From: Flavobacteriales bacterium
GTDB lineage: Bacteria; Bacteroidota; Bacteroidia; Flavobacteriales_E; Vicingaceae
Assembly (NCBI GenBank): GCA_905339165.1
Contig: CAJPFH010000004.1
Coordinates: 62,001-126,000 of the forward strand
Length of the DNA stretch: 64,000 nucleotides
Reading direction: 5' to 3'
Shown here: positions 48,951 through 55,231 of the stretch, in pieces
How the letters are laid out: each line of letters starts with the position of its first letter
Numbering within the stretch: the stretch's first letter is position 1
Position numbers and translations under genes: made by a program
Notes under the pieces: generated by a model
What the model was told of the DNA's origin: nothing
The model's input: only the letters and a program-made list of their open reading frames with translations
Database searches by the model: none

Positions 48951-48981
48951 TTGAATAAATTGTTGAAAACAAATATATTTG
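48951..48981 (+). promoter_or_regulatory. Bacteroidota-type promoter with a palindromic -7 element
   Basis: TTG (48951-48953), 20 bases, then TATATTTG (48974-48981), 55 bases before the ATG at 49037. The -7 region is a perfect 12-base palindrome (CAAATATATTTG, 48970-48981), giving the motif on both strands. Confidence 0.55.
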
Positions 48982-49036: not shown

Positions 49037-51307
49037 ATGAAAAAGTATTTTTTATTCACATCGCTTCTCTTCTTAAAATTCTCTCTTTTCTCTCAAGATA
49101 AATTCAGAGAGCGATTCTACGAAGCCAACACTATGATGGAAGAACGATACTACGAAGCAGCTCTCCCTATTTGGCTTAATCTTCTTGAACAACAACCCGA
49201 TAACAATAACCTAAATTATAAAGTAGGCGTGTGCTACATAAACACCGGAAACCAAAAAAGAAAAGCACTGCAATACCTCGAAAAAGCGATACAAAACACA
49301 ACCTCTAATTATGACATTTTCTCGCATACCGAGAAAAAAGCACCCGTTGAAACGCATTACTACTACGCACGTGCGCTACATCTAAATATGGAATTTGATA
49401 AAGCTATTGAACATTATAAAAATTTTAAAACCTACATAACCAAAAAACACTATTTATGGGATGAAACCGATATGGAAGTGAAACGAACCGAATATGCTAA
49501 AATAGCAGTAGCCAATCCGGTAAATCTGAAAGTACAAAATTTAGGTTCGAAAATCAATACCAAATATCCCGAATACTCTCCGGTAATTTCTATTGATGAA
49601 TCGGCTATTTACTTTACATCAAGAAGAGTACGCCCCGATAGTTCAAACGCAAATATTATAGACGAAGAAGATGGTATGCCTTTCGAAGATATTTATGTTT
49701 CTTACTTCGAAAAAGGCGAATGGCAGGAGCCCGAACTTCTCACTCTTAACAGCATGGGGCACGAAGCCACCCTTAACATTACCATAGACGGAAATACCCT
49801 GCTTATTTATAAAGACGATAACGGGAACGGAGAACTATACAAAAGTTTTTTTGACGGTGAAATGTGGAATACTCCAGAAAAGTTGAGTGCCAATGTAAAC
49901 TCCTCCTCTTACGAAACCCATGCTGCCCTATCGCCCGATAATAGCATTCTTTACTTTGTTAGCGACCGCAAAGGTGGATTTGGAGGGAAAGATATTTATA
50001 TGTGCAAAAAACTTCCAAACGGAGAATGGGCCTTGGCTCAAAACTTAGGGCCCAACATCAATACTCTTTACGATGAAGATGGTATTTTTCTGCATCCCGA
50101 TGGAAAAACTCTCTATTTCAGCTCGCGCGGACATACCAGTATTGGTGGGTACGATATATTCTACTCGGAATTACAAGAAGATGGCTCATGGAGCACTCCT
50201 GCCAATATGGGCTACCCTGTAAACTCTACCGATGATGACATTTTTTTTGTTACCTCTGTTGACGGGAGAAGAGCTTATTATTCTTCCTTTCAAGATGGAG
50301 GATACGGAGAAAAGGATATTTACATGATTACATTAATGGATGCCCCCGAAAAAGCTCTTACACTGCTAACCGGTATTATTACAGTTATAGGTATGGATAA
50401 ACTACCCGAAGACGCACTTATAACCATTACAAACAACGAAACAGGAGAACTTGTTGGAAAATACAAACCCAGAGCCAGAGACGGCCGTTTTTCTATTATT
50501 TTACAACCCGGTAATGAATACCACATAAAGTACGAAGCAGCAGGTTTTAGCGAAGATGAGGATCTTTACATTCCTCCCGCATCAGCCTACCAGGAAATTG
50601 ATAAAGCCATTGGTTTAAAACCCGTTGTTTTTGGAAGTTTGCCAAATAAAGATAAAGATACGGGAAAAGATATTGCCTCTAAAGATAAGGATGCAGGAAA
50701 AGATGTTGCATCTAAAGATAAAGACACCTCTAAAGACAAGGATGCAGGAAAAGATGTTGCATCTAAAGATAAAGACACCTCCAAAGACAAGGATACAGGA
50801 AAAGATGTTGCATCTAAAGATAAAGACAGCTCTAAAGATAAGAATACAGGAAAAGACTTAGCCAAAGACAAAGACGTTGCTGTGAAAGACCAAAATGCAG
50901 GTAAGAACGCCACAGACAATAAAGAAGTAGATAAGTCTAAAGTGATTTTTCAAAAGTACTTTGGCTACAATGTAAAGGATATAAATAAAACCGATCAACT
51001 GTATGCCGATTTCATAAACAAGCTGACACAAGTTATTGAAAAGGAAGGTTCCGTTAAAATCAATATCGAATCCAGTGCTTCGAAAGTACCCACTAAAACA
51101 TTTGTAACCAACGAAAATTTAGCCGAAAAAAGAGCCTTGGAAGCGAAACTACTCCTCTTTATTAGTCTTAAAGAAAAAGGCTTAAAAAGCGATCAGGTTA
51201 TCATAAATAATATTGTTCATTTAGTACAAGGCCCTGAATACACCAACGATGCCGGAAATCAAAAGAAATATCAAAAATTTCAGTACGTTAAACTTACCTT
51301 AGAATAA
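49037..51307 (+). CDS. TPR/PD40 envelope protein with KDKD-repeat linker and OmpA-like tail
   Basis: 756 residues: signal peptide (MKKYFLFTSLLFLKFSLFSQ), TPR helices (about 25-150), PD40 propeller (about 165-430; DNSILYFVSDRKGGFGGKDIY), a carboxypeptidase-regulatory-like domain (about 440-530), a charged linker of Lys/Asp repeats (residues 538-630; units of KDKDTSKDKDAGKDVAS) and a C-terminal OmpA-like domain (about 640-756; NLAEKRALEAKLLL). The D of the usual DAP-binding site is missing (SSASK). Probably outer-membrane-associated or periplasmic. It is a paralogue of the next two genes and ends 4 bases before the TTG start of the next. Function unknown. Confidence 0.82.
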   Translation: MKKYFLFTSLLFLKFSLFSQDKFRERFYEANTMMEERYYEAALPIWLNLLEQQPDNNNLNYKVGVCYINTGNQKRKALQYLEKAIQNTTSNYDIFSHTEKKAPVETHYYYARALHLNMEFDKAIEHYKNFKTYITKKHYLWDETDMEVKRTEYAKIAVANPVNLKVQNLGSKINTKYPEYSPVISIDESAIYFTSRRVRPDSSNANIIDEEDGMPFEDIYVSYFEKGEWQEPELLTLNSMGHEATLNITIDGNTLLIYKDDNGNGELYKSFFDGEMWNTPEKLSANVNSSSYETHAALSPDNSILYFVSDRKGGFGGKDIYMCKKLPNGEWALAQNLGPNINTLYDEDGIFLHPDGKTLYFSSRGHTSIGGYDIFYSELQEDGSWSTPANMGYPVNSTDDDIFFVTSVDGRRAYYSSFQDGGYGEKDIYMITLMDAPEKALTLLTGIITVIGMDKLPEDALITITNNETGELVGKYKPRARDGRFSIILQPGNEYHIKYEAAGFSEDEDLYIPPASAYQEIDKAIGLKPVVFGSLPNKDKDTGKDIASKDKDAGKDVASKDKDTSKDKDAGKDVASKDKDTSKDKDTGKDVASKDKDSSKDKNTGKDLAKDKDVAVKDQNAGKNATDNKEVDKSKVIFQKYFGYNVKDINKTDQLYADFINKLTQVIEKEGSVKINIESSASKVPTKTFVTNENLAEKRALEAKLLLFISLKEKGLKSDQVIINNIVHLVQGPEYTNDAGNQKKYQKFQYVKLTLE
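50648..50920 (+). repeat. In-frame tandem repeat encoding KDKD(T/S)-rich linker (51-bp unit)
   Basis: Near-identical units of 51 bases (17 codons), with shorter 33-base first units, encode KDKDTSKDKDAGKDVAS. Two full-length copies are nearly identical and flanking copies diverge. The frame is kept throughout. It joins the regulatory-like domain to the OmpA-like domain. Confidence 0.85.
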
Positions 51308-51311
51308 CTTT

Positions 51312-53564
51312 TTGCTACAGCCCTTTACAATAAATATTTTTCTAAAAGACAAACGAGCATTAATAATGCTCGTTTGTCTTTTAACCCAATTTAATGTTGC
51401 AATCGCCCAACAAGAAAAAAAAATACTTCACAAGGCACAAAAATCATCCTATTACGGGGATTTCGAATTATCCAAAAAATACTATTCGGAATTACTCTCT
51501 TTTCAACCCGAAAATGCACAATACTTGCTTCAAACAGGAGTCGTTTACTGGGAATCGGATGTAAATAAAGACAGCTCTCTATATTTTTTGGAAAAAGCCT
51601 TAAAGTATTCTCAAAAAGACACTCAACCCGAACTTTTTTTATATCTGGCAAAGGTTCAACACTATTGTGAGAAATTTGATGAAGCCATTCAATCTGCAAA
51701 ACATTTTGAAACATTCATAAATCTAAATACCAACGATGGCAGGGAATTAGTATTGCAAATAAATCAACTTGTAAATTATGTAGAAAATGCGAAACAACTT
51801 TTAACCCTTTCTTCACTCAAACCCTTTTTGCTGAACAAAGAAATTAACAGCCTCTTTCACGACTATGCACCCGTGTATTTAAAAACCGATTCTGTCATTG
51901 TATTCACCTCCAGAAGACCTGCAAATAGTAAGAGGAAAGCTCCTGATGGACTTTTATATGAAAACATTTTAATAGCCAAAAAAAATACAAATACATGGAA
52001 TTTAATAACTTCTCCAAACGAAATAAAAAAATACTTACCCACTAATCTCAATACAAAAAAACACAGCTCAGCCTTAACTTATTTCAACCATAAAAAAACA
52101 TTTTATTTTTACAAAAAAGACCGAATATGGCTCTCTGAATTTGAAAATAATGAGTGGGGAAAACCCGTAAAACTGGCAAAAAACATTAATTCAAGTAAAT
52201 TTAATGTACCTAGTATTTGTTTCAGTGCCGATGGAAATACATTGTTCTTTGTGGCTAACAGAAAAAACGGAATAGGTGGTAAAGATATCTATACTTCTGC
52301 CAAAAGTACAGAAGGAAAATGGAGTGAACCTGTTTTACTCAATAATAACATCAACAGCCCACTAGACGAAGAATCCCCGTTTCTATCTGAAAATGGCAAA
52401 TGGCTCTATTTTTCATCTAAAGGGCACCATTCCATTGGAGGCTACGATATTTTTGTTGCTAAATTTGAAAACAACCAATGGCAGAAAGCTGAAAATTTGG
52501 GTAAACCCTTTAACTCGCCTGCCGATGATATTTACTTTTCAATAAATGAAAAGGAGCAAACAGGCTTCTTTTCTTCAAATCGAAAAGGAGGGTACGGAGG
52601 CATGGACAATTATGCCTTTGGTAAAGAATGTGAACATATAAATCAACTTCTTATATCGGGCATTGTTTTACCTAAAACTACTAATCCTCCTGCTATTTCA
52701 GCAGAACTGCATAACGATAACAATCTGTTTATCCAAAAAATAAACATCGACTCTACCGGCCGATTTTCTTTTCCGGTATACACCGAAAAAAAGTATACCC
52801 TAACTATTGCTACGGATAAAACCCAACACACCCAACTTGTAGTTATACCCAAACCATGTAATATATTCAACCCCTACCTTGAATTAGAAATTAATTATTC
52901 TCCTGTAAACGATAGTACTACAGAAGAAAACATTTCTTCGAGAATAGCATTAATTGATTTAAATTCCTTTACAGTACAAGAACAAGACAGTTTGCAGCTA
53001 AAGAATATTGCACAAACCAAATTCTCGGATTTCCCATTAATTGTTACCAAAACTCAATTTCACACTGAACTAAAAAACCATTTTATTTTAAATTTAATAG
53101 ATGCAGCAAACGCAAACCATCAAATAAGCAAAACCAAATCGTCTCAACTTTTAACTAACAAACCCAGCAAAACAGAAAACCACACCATTCCTTCGCAAAT
53201 AGAATTTATCCATTATTTCAGCTATAACGAAAAAAATTTAGAACAAACCCAAAAAGAGTACACGCTGTTTATTGAAAAAGTACTAAAACACATTGAAACA
53301 TATGGAAATATTAGTATTTCTATTGAAGCAAGTGCGTCAACAGTTCCAACCAAAACATTCATCAGTAACCATAACCTAGCCGAAAAAAGAGCCCTGGAAG
53401 CGAAACTCTTATTGTTTGAAACCCTTAAACAAAAAGGTATAAACAGCAGTGCTATAAAAATTAAAAGGATAACCCCTCTACTGCAAGGCCCAAGCTACGC
53501 CAATGATGCCGAAAACACAACAAAGTATAGAAATTTTCAATATGTTCGTCTAAAAATTGAGTAG
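51312..53564 (+). CDS. TPR/PD40 envelope protein with OmpA-like tail
   Basis: 750 residues if TTG at 51312 is used; the first ATG is at 51366 (732 residues). The TTG start gives a signal peptide with positive charges (KDKR) before the hydrophobic part ALIMLVCLLTQFNVAIA, so it is preferred. Then TPR-like helices, PD40 propeller (about 165-430; DGNTLFFVANRKNGIGGKDIYTS), a small beta domain and a C-terminal OmpA-like domain (about 630-750; NLAEKRALEAKLLL) with SAS in place of the DAP-binding Asp region. Its start region is overlapped by the terminator-like hairpin at 51343-51383. Paralogue of 49037; function unknown. Confidence 0.78.
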   Translation: MLQPFTINIFLKDKRALIMLVCLLTQFNVAIAQQEKKILHKAQKSSYYGDFELSKKYYSELLSFQPENAQYLLQTGVVYWESDVNKDSSLYFLEKALKYSQKDTQPELFLYLAKVQHYCEKFDEAIQSAKHFETFINLNTNDGRELVLQINQLVNYVENAKQLLTLSSLKPFLLNKEINSLFHDYAPVYLKTDSVIVFTSRRPANSKRKAPDGLLYENILIAKKNTNTWNLITSPNEIKKYLPTNLNTKKHSSALTYFNHKKTFYFYKKDRIWLSEFENNEWGKPVKLAKNINSSKFNVPSICFSADGNTLFFVANRKNGIGGKDIYTSAKSTEGKWSEPVLLNNNINSPLDEESPFLSENGKWLYFSSKGHHSIGGYDIFVAKFENNQWQKAENLGKPFNSPADDIYFSINEKEQTGFFSSNRKGGYGGMDNYAFGKECEHINQLLISGIVLPKTTNPPAISAELHNDNNLFIQKINIDSTGRFSFPVYTEKKYTLTIATDKTQHTQLVVIPKPCNIFNPYLELEINYSPVNDSTTEENISSRIALIDLNSFTVQEQDSLQLKNIAQTKFSDFPLIVTKTQFHTELKNHFILNLIDAANANHQISKTKSSQLLTNKPSKTENHTIPSQIEFIHYFSYNEKNLEQTQKEYTLFIEKVLKHIETYGNISISIEASASTVPTKTFISNHNLAEKRALEAKLLLFETLKQKGINSSAIKIKRITPLLQGPSYANDAENTTKYRNFQYVRLKIE
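51343..51383 (+). terminator. Perfect 18-bp hairpin, terminator-like, inside the next gene's signal-peptide codons
   Basis: Arms 51343-51360 and 51366-51383 (TAAAAGACAAACGAGCAT and its exact reverse complement) around a 5-base loop TAATA, with a U-rich 3' side (TGTCTTTTA). It lies 35 bases after the stop of the gene ending at 51307 and includes the ATG at 51366. It has the shape of Bacteroidota intrinsic terminators. Confidence 0.75.
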
Positions 53565-53639: not shown

Positions 53640-53647
53640 TACATTTG
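53640..53647 (+). promoter_or_regulatory. Candidate -7 element before the gene at 53702
   Basis: TACATTTG fits TAnnTTTG and lies 54 bases before the ATG in the 137-base gap. No TTG at 19 bases. The leader has two mutually exclusive short stems: TTGGTA (53653-53658) with TACCAA (53672-53677), and GGTACT (53655-53660) with AGTACC (53682-53687). Confidence 0.38.
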
Positions 53648-53701: not shown

Positions 53702-55231
53702 ATGAAAAAACTTGCCTACATATTACTTTTTACTGTGCCTCTTTTTTCTATTGCACAAAAGTACGACCCCGAAAGTGCAAAAGAACATTTTAAACACAAC
53801 AACTTTAGTGCAGCTCTTACCGATTATATGAAATGCATAAAATTTGAGCCCGAAAACCCCGACTTTCATTTCAAAGCAGGGTACTGCGTTTTGCATTTAG
53901 CCGTTGACAAAAAACAGGCTCTCCCCTTTTTAGAAAAAGCCGTCTCCTTACCTAAGGTAGACCCTGAAGCACTTTACTATATGGGGTTAGCATATCATAT
54001 CAATCACGAATTCGATAAGGCCGCTGAATTTTACCTCAAATACAAAGCCTTAAACAAAGGAGAAAATCAAAAACAAGCAGAAAGGCAACTGATGATGCTG
54101 GAAAACGCCCGAAAATTAACAGCAGCTCCGGTAGATGTTAGTTTTCAAAATTTAGGTGCCACCATAAATTCCACCTTCCCCGACTACTACCCTTACATTA
54201 CCCCCAACGAATCATATATTATTTTTACATCACGCAGAAAAGGAAAAGGCAGCAAAGAATTTGATGGTTATTATCCTTCCGATATTTACGAATCGAAAGT
54301 TACAAACGGAGAATTTGAAAGTGCTAAATTACTAGGCACCATTAATGGCCCCTTCGATGAGCAAGCCGTGGGTCTCTCTTACGATGCCAATACCTTATTT
54401 CTTTATATTGACAATATTGAAGAGTATGGAGATATTTTCGAATCGAACAAAAAAAATAACAAATACAGCAAACCCCTCAAAATGGGTGAAAATGTAAACT
54501 CGAAAGACTTCGAAAGTTCTGCCTCTATTTCGGCCGAAGGAAACACCTTGTTCTTTTCAAGCAACCGCAAAGGCGGACAAGGGGGAAAAGACATTTGGAT
54601 GACACGTAAATTACCTACCGGAGAGTGGGCTCTGCCACAAAATTTAGGCCCCAATATCAACACCGAATATGATGAAGATTTTCCAAATCTTTTTTACGAT
54701 GGAAAAACTCTTTATTACTCATCAAACGGAAGAAACAGCATTGGAGGATACGATTTATTCAAAAGCGTATGGGATTCCGAAAACAACGAATGGTCTTTTC
54801 CGGAAAATATTGGTTACCCTATTAATACCTGCGATGATAACATGGTTATTGCTTTTACCGATGACCAACGCCATGCCTACGTTTCTATGTGGCGAGAAGA
54901 TACGCAAGGCGATTTAGACATTTACCGCGTTACCTTTAACGAATTAGACGAAAAACAAACCGTTTTTAAATCTAAACTCATCAATGCAACCTCTAAAGAA
55001 TTTATAAAAAATGCATTCATTACCGTTACCGATAATCGTACCATGAAAGAGGTAGGGCAATATATACCCAACCAAAAAAACGGATCGTTTGTAATGATTC
55101 TTAAGCCGGGAAGCTACCAGATAAATATAGATGCACCCGGATATTCCACTATTAAAAAAGATATTCTCATTAAAGGAAGGAGCGATTTTGAAGAAATGAT
55201 TAACGAAGATTTTGAACTCACCAAACAATGA
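53702..55231 (+). CDS. TPR/PD40 envelope protein without OmpA tail
   Basis: 509 residues: signal peptide (MKKLAYILLFTVPLFSIAQ), TPR helices (about 22-145), PD40 propeller (about 150-420; AEGNTLFFSSNRKGGQGGKDIW), and a C-terminal carboxypeptidase-regulatory-like beta domain (about 425-509). It lacks the OmpA-like domain seen in the two preceding genes and resembles the protein at 24664. Likely periplasmic. Its stop overlaps the exonuclease ATG (ATGA at 55228-55231), so the unrelated exonuclease is translationally coupled to it. Confidence 0.8.
   Translation: MKKLAYILLFTVPLFSIAQKYDPESAKEHFKHNNFSAALTDYMKCIKFEPENPDFHFKAGYCVLHLAVDKKQALPFLEKAVSLPKVDPEALYYMGLAYHINHEFDKAAEFYLKYKALNKGENQKQAERQLMMLENARKLTAAPVDVSFQNLGATINSTFPDYYPYITPNESYIIFTSRRKGKGSKEFDGYYPSDIYESKVTNGEFESAKLLGTINGPFDEQAVGLSYDANTLFLYIDNIEEYGDIFESNKKNNKYSKPLKMGENVNSKDFESSASISAEGNTLFFSSNRKGGQGGKDIWMTRKLPTGEWALPQNLGPNINTEYDEDFPNLFYDGKTLYYSSNGRNSIGGYDLFKSVWDSENNEWSFPENIGYPINTCDDNMVIAFTDDQRHAYVSMWREDTQGDLDIYRVTFNELDEKQTVFKSKLINATSKEFIKNAFITVTDNRTMKEVGQYIPNQKNGSFVMILKPGSYQINIDAPGYSTIKKDILIKGRSDFEEMINEDFELTKQ

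Follow-up and report, generated by a model that had tools for sequence, protein, structure and literature searches.

The window is a stretch of 64,000 nucleotides from a Flavobacteriales bacterium of the family Vicingaceae, and the features described here lie on its forward strand. Gene 1 (49037-51307) is an open reading frame for a 756-residue exported TPR / PD40 beta-propeller protein, which matches PD40 in Pfam (9.6e-23) and CHU_0125_OmpA (211.8 bits) and T9SS_PorE (172.9 bits) in NCBIfam, each of the latter two under its cut-off. The next open reading frame, gene 2 (51312-53564), is a paralogue of gene 1. It likely starts with the TTG at 51312, 4 nt past the gene-1 stop, and opens with the signal peptide MLQPFTINIFLKDKRALIMLVCLLTQFNVAIAQ. 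Judged by sequence similarity, both products are related to PD40/TPR proteins of the PorE / CHU_0125 OmpA-like kind, under the cut-offs of these named families. A PDB search gave short partial matches to designed helical-repeat proteins and nothing else. Gene 2 is 89% identical to its counterpart in the sister species (G001), with a dN of 0.052 and a dS of 0.273, and purifying selection acts on it. Gene 3 (53702-55231) encodes a third PD40 protein.

A motif scan places a putative promoter of gene 1 at 48951-48981, of the Bacteroidota type TTG-N20-TATATTTG with the -7 box at 48974-48981, and this site is identical in the sister species. The -7 box of the flavobacterial sigma-A is TAnnTTTG (PMC9723704). 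A possible -7 box of gene 3, TACATTTG at 53640-53647, is a motif match only. Within gene 1 there is a Lys/Asp-rich repeat linker (KDKD-GKDVASKD units, 50640-50930 of the window), where an antisense frame of 110 residues is open. This frame is a by-product of the linker and is not taken as evidence of a gene.

A perfect hairpin in the signal-peptide codons of gene 2

The hairpin occupies positions 51343-51383 (TAAAAGACAAACGAGCATTAATAATGCTCGTTTGTCTTTTA, read directly from the sequence). Its left arm, TAAAAGACAAACGAGCAT (51343-51360), and its right arm, ATGCTCGTTTGTCTTTTA (51366-51383), form 18 exact pairs around the 5-nt loop TAATA, and an extra T-A pair extends the stem to 19 bp, closing a 3-nt loop. 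An earlier note on this DNA had described the arms as exact reverse complements of 18 bp with a 5-base loop that double as signal-peptide codons and have the shape of a terminator. The pairing is confirmed, and the gene-2 frame continues through the hairpin, whose codons spell (L)KDKRALIMLVCLL; the one correction is that the ATG at 51366, within the right arm, is probably not the start codon. The terminator-like shape is borne out as well, with a GC-containing core, an A-rich 5' arm and a U-rich 3' arm. The U-rich segment of the latter, TTGTCTTTTA (51374-51383), is paired with the A-rich 5' arm and would serve as the tail of the terminator if the core worked by itself.

The hairpin is far beyond what is expected by chance, also when the same peptide is recoded synonymously. 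The predicted RNA fold of 51300-51420 has an energy of -29.4 kcal/mol (z -7.3), which none of 200 shuffles equalled, and none of 1000 synonymous recodings with the gene's own codon usage reached an equal stem length (p_syn 0.001). In a survey of about 766 kb of sequence from this genome, 33 perfect stems (11 bp or longer) were counted. The 28 intergenic ones mostly have A-rich and U-rich arms, i.e. they are ordinary terminators, and three of the 33 lie no more than 150 nt past the start of a called ORF, in one case because that start is over-extended. Rfam 15 gave nothing near threshold, the best matches being at about half the gathering score or below. A terminator scan made no call at the hairpin, probably because the scan needs T's after the stem and here they are in the arm.

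Recurrence and covariation in the Vicingaceae

Gene 2 was found in 25 genomes of the family Vicingaceae at E <= 1e-75, and a search at the level of the order returned the same 46 genomes. Outside the genus its identity is 35-43%, and it mostly adjoins a gene-1 paralogue. The 24 loci that include the N-terminus of gene 2 form the denominator of orthologous pairs. Nine of them, in five genera, have a perfect hairpin of 11-19 bp over the signal peptide, at the same place and in the same codon phase. The carriers are this genome (G000) and its sister species, both with the same sequence (genus g1), and G018 (CAAAAACCTCTTTTTAAGAGGTTTTTG), G024 (CAAAAAGTCTTTATCTAAAGACTTTTTG), G029 (CAAAAAGTCTTTTAACAAAGACTTTTTG), G031 (AAAGAACCTTAGTACTAAGGTTCTTT), G007 (AAAAAGCAATAATATTACATTATTGCTTTTT), G016 (AAAGGATAGCTTCAGAGCTATCCTTT) and G062 (CTAAAAGCCTTTTTTTAAAGGCTTTTAG). 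Lys is encoded by the A-rich arm and Leu/Phe by the U-rich arm in every carrier. A further locus, in G061, has a stem that includes a single G-U pair, and the remaining loci have at most 8 bp. The earlier note had taken relatives with both genes and no stem as speaking against its proposal. Such relatives exist, as 15 of the 24 pairs are without a perfect stem, while nine carry the hairpin, which is therefore widespread and not universal. In G029 (L020) the frame of gene 2 shifts about 500 nt past the start, which could be an error of the draft assembly or a broken gene.

On a protein tree the carriers are scattered: five of the six members of the g5/g7/g16 clade, both of g1, two of g13 (plus the G-U stem) and none of the five of g4, with the caveat that the two longest branches join at one fork, where the placement is unsure. 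By this distribution, a single ancestral element with losses and repeated gain would both fit.

Stems of this kind are rare at other gene starts. Across six genomes, with about 1.97 Mb and 1644 ORFs in total, 16 stems of 10 bp or more lie no further than 150 nt from an ORF start; four of these are gene 2, and most of the others result from over-extended starts. Among 482 signal-peptide-like ORFs, five have an 11-bp stem and three of the five are gene 2, leaving two in 479 outside it. Comparing 9/24 with 12/1640 ORFs, Fisher's test gives p ~1e-12, and with 2/479 signal-peptide-like ORFs ~1e-11; both values are optimistic, treating the loci as independent and ignoring phylogeny. Synonymous recoding rarely matches the stem in the eight carriers tested (p 0.001-0.014). 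Several other candidate cases were set aside: L077 and L060, where the true start lies downstream; L074 and L095, which are gene ends; and, by eye, L105, L127, L135, L138, L140, L133 and L083, which have over-extended starts or are not A/T-flanked signal-peptide cases.

For the analysis of covariation, 26-mers in codon register were aligned from G024, G029, G031, G062, G061 and G016, a gap-free set in one codon register (MAFFT on 29-mers displaced two rows). The earlier note had proposed comparing relatives for conserved stem pairing, and pairing is indeed kept through changes on both sides: 98.5% of the cells are paired and 9 of the 11 pairs show both-sided change, although the rows were mostly selected for possessing stems, so that this demonstrates different stems at the same place and is not an unbiased test of covariation. 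None of 500 shuffles reached this level of pairing, and it falls to 58-75% when the register is slid by one. The stems of G024 and G029 are the same, whereas none of the four loop bases is shared and the loop residues change from YL to LT. Their stem codons at conserved residues are identical in 6/6 cases, against 0.57 outside the stem, with a chance of about 0.035 when taken alone. We are confident that the pairing is under selection. Conservation in the sister species was discarded as evidence and given no weight, because a 56-nt stretch without differences, as seen over the hairpin, is nothing unusual: of 3495 windows of 58 nt in the region, 34 are also free of mismatches.

Terminator character and possible modes of action

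The complete terminator architecture, a GC-containing core and a U-rich tract with 4 or more U immediately following the core, is present in all nine hairpins, and their build is that of the intergenic terminators of these genomes. The U-richness after the stem is in part forced by the hydrophobic codons. In the eight hairpins scored the terminator score is higher for the sense than for the antisense strand, with a margin of only 0.2 in G000. The score, a proxy calibrated on E. coli, is about 0 in G000, at the bottom of the 25 A/T-flanked hairpins sampled. The gene-2 hairpin is also the lowest-scoring in G018 (n=22) and G024 (n=11), i.e. it falls short of the genomes' own terminators in the three genomes ranked. 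Such a low score could mean a weak terminator or none. Given its calibration, it weakens the claim of a full terminator and not that of a partial one, for which the lowest score is as expected, and we count it in favour of an attenuator.

The two genes are co-directional, and gene 2 starts between 13 nt before and 23 nt after the gene-1 stop. A search for TTG..TAnnTTTG sites in about 1.4 kb upstream of the hairpin returned none in ten genomes, including the genome with the G-U stem. With a putative promoter before gene 1 and no such site before the hairpin, the simplest view is that transcription passes through the hairpin to reach gene 2. This agrees with the view of the earlier note that every transcript able to make the gene-2 protein carries part or all of it.

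On balance, the hairpin is probably a weak intrinsic terminator (attenuator) inside a two-gene operon, embedded in the signal-peptide codons of gene 2 and lowering the dose of that gene. Transcription would begin upstream of gene 1, and at the U-rich 3' arm part of the polymerases would halt, giving an mRNA of gene 1 only, while the remaining ones would continue into gene 2, whose dose would be below that of gene 1. As gene 2 is under purifying selection, read-through must suffice to express it. Dose control by read-through, already raised in the earlier note, is a putative mechanism, and the best one that we can infer.

In the carriers the stem follows the start of gene 2 (ATG; TTG in g1 and G016) at a distance of 25-38 nt, and the start is upstream of it in seven of the seven hairpin genomes outside the genus. 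The distance from TTG 51312 to the stem, 31 nt, falls within the range of the orthologues. An initiating ribosome would then not be expected to reach the stem; one that advances into gene 2 would open it, and read-through may be favoured by translation. We suggest only tentatively, as a possible but rather doubtful extension, that a translation-sensitive attenuator is kept in the signal peptide of a secreted paralogue, where the ribosome making the signal peptide would decide on the transcription of its own gene, and that intrinsic terminators may be usable as signal-peptide codons. In the peptide-leader attenuators of trp and his, terminator formation is coupled to the translating ribosome. 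Formation of the terminator could be coupled in the same way here, with the difference that the ribosome would belong to the regulated gene itself. A non-exhaustive search for a leader peptide with control codons and for an alternative antiterminator helix found neither.

Among the alternatives to an attenuator, the one that survives best, unlikely as we consider it, is that the hairpin acts on translation without ending transcription, by slowing early elongation, as a checkpoint for signal-peptide targeting, or by lowering the initiation of gene 2. The ordinary terminators begin at a median of 17 nt past the stop (quartiles 13-20, 90th percentile 23, n=61), and the gene-2 hairpins 25-48 nt past the gene-1 stop. 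Being beyond the usual 13-20 nt, they would also fit an element that acts on gene-2 translation, and the spacing of 25-38 nt seems to be set from the gene-2 start. In addition, a hairpin in the signal-anchor codons of another gene (L121, in G007) is 29 nt past the ATG and is without an A-rich 5' arm. However, the terminator architecture is complete and A/U-flanked in 9/9 hairpins, the GC cores outside g1, at -3 to -10 kcal/mol (-10.6 to -14.1 for the entire stems), are weak and would do little to stop a ribosome, and with 2/479 such hairpins are not general among signal-peptide genes.

A clearly less probable role is that of protecting or defining the 3' end of the gene-1 mRNA after processing, which would raise gene 1 and not lower gene 2. 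It is generally known that long perfect stems can resist 3' exonucleases. For operon-internal terminators in Clostridia the folding energy is tied to the stability of the upstream transcript (PMC9045158). Such a stabiliser would, however, need neither a U-rich end nor a site within gene-2 codons, and the ordinary terminators of these genomes are nearer to the stop.

It is very improbable that the stem is a by-product of composition, i.e. that an A+T-rich genome coding for Lys-rich and then Phe/Leu-rich peptides yields complementary arms by chance. AAA/AAG and TTT/CTT are reverse complements, and terminators and signal peptides are alike in one frame, but this explanation is already largely refuted by the synonymous shuffles, which retain the peptide but seldom yield such a stem, by the covariation, in which paired bases change on both sides together, and by the survey of signal-peptide-like genes, only 2/479 others having a stem. 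The least credible idea, from the earlier note, is that the hairpin masks a gene-2 start at ATG 51366: this ATG is base-paired within the 3' arm, but masking it is unsupported because the hairpin follows the conserved start at a distance of 25-38 nt, and the ATG is not conserved in other genera and would give a signal peptide without the charged n-region.

Known systems and further cases

Like the ordinary bidirectional A/U-flanked terminators of these genomes, the gene-2 hairpin has an A-rich arm, a GC core, a U-rich arm and a perfect stem; the ordinary ones differ in being intergenic, 13-20 nt past the stop and higher in score. In Clostridial ABC-importer operons, internal intrinsic terminators set the ratio of upstream to downstream transcripts (PMC9045158). 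The likeness lies in a stem-loop after the first gene of the operon, a U-rich 3' arm that tends to pair upstream and a weak U-tract. However, the Clostridial stem-loops are intergenic and their function has been shown, whereas the hairpin described here is within the downstream coding sequence, also spells a signal peptide and has a putative function. In E. coli, according to Grundstrom and Jaurin 1982 as cited in PMC11838884, the frd terminator is also the ampC attenuator. It is reported to span +17 to +37 of the transcript that ampC makes from its own promoter, which is inside the frd operon. In that account, too, one hairpin ends the upstream unit and attenuates a downstream gene for an exported protein, unlike here, where no separate promoter is seen and the hairpin is in codons ~11-24 of gene 2.

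Operon-internal terminators are known in gaps and leaders; here a putative regulatory hairpin and an export signal share the same bases in five genera, and the pairing is kept while the sequence and some amino acids vary. This makes the locus a clean test case for one sequence serving protein targeting and, presumably, transcription control. What makes the overlap possible is that the A-rich and U-rich arms of a terminator, when the frame is right, encode a Lys-rich and then a Phe/Leu-rich peptide, i.e. the n- and h-regions. Of the 46 A/T-flanked hairpins in G000 and G018, 25 can be read like a signal peptide (open, with a basic left arm and hydrophobic after it) in at least one strand and frame, and 14% of the hairpin strand-frames are signal-peptide-like, compared with 1.4% of random stretches. 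The terminators of A+T-rich genomes may therefore be ready-made signal-peptide codons, and gene finders and terminator finders may miss each other's element. The literature searched, with partial coverage, gave no description of terminators used as signal-peptide codons.

A second case in the genus is a YiiX-like lipoprotein (L071 9990-10673, also in L101; L102 in G001) whose ATG lies within the last part of the upstream gene. A 12-bp terminator-like hairpin (L071:10022-10049) with a strong terminator score of 38.7 encodes its signal peptide, KQEKLFSCFF, and between G001 and this genome the loop differs while the stem is kept.

Two further hairpins were observed. In the L121 gene of G007, which starts 4 nt after the upstream gene, a 12-bp hairpin (L121:2592-2622) lies in the signal-anchor codons (MKNIPLYVKILVLSLILIAPAV), with a T5 a few bases past the stem. 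At L101:2666-2709, a 20-bp perfect hairpin is shared by the two species of the genus, and close to its foot the two sides have both changed (CCG..CGG to CAG..CTG).
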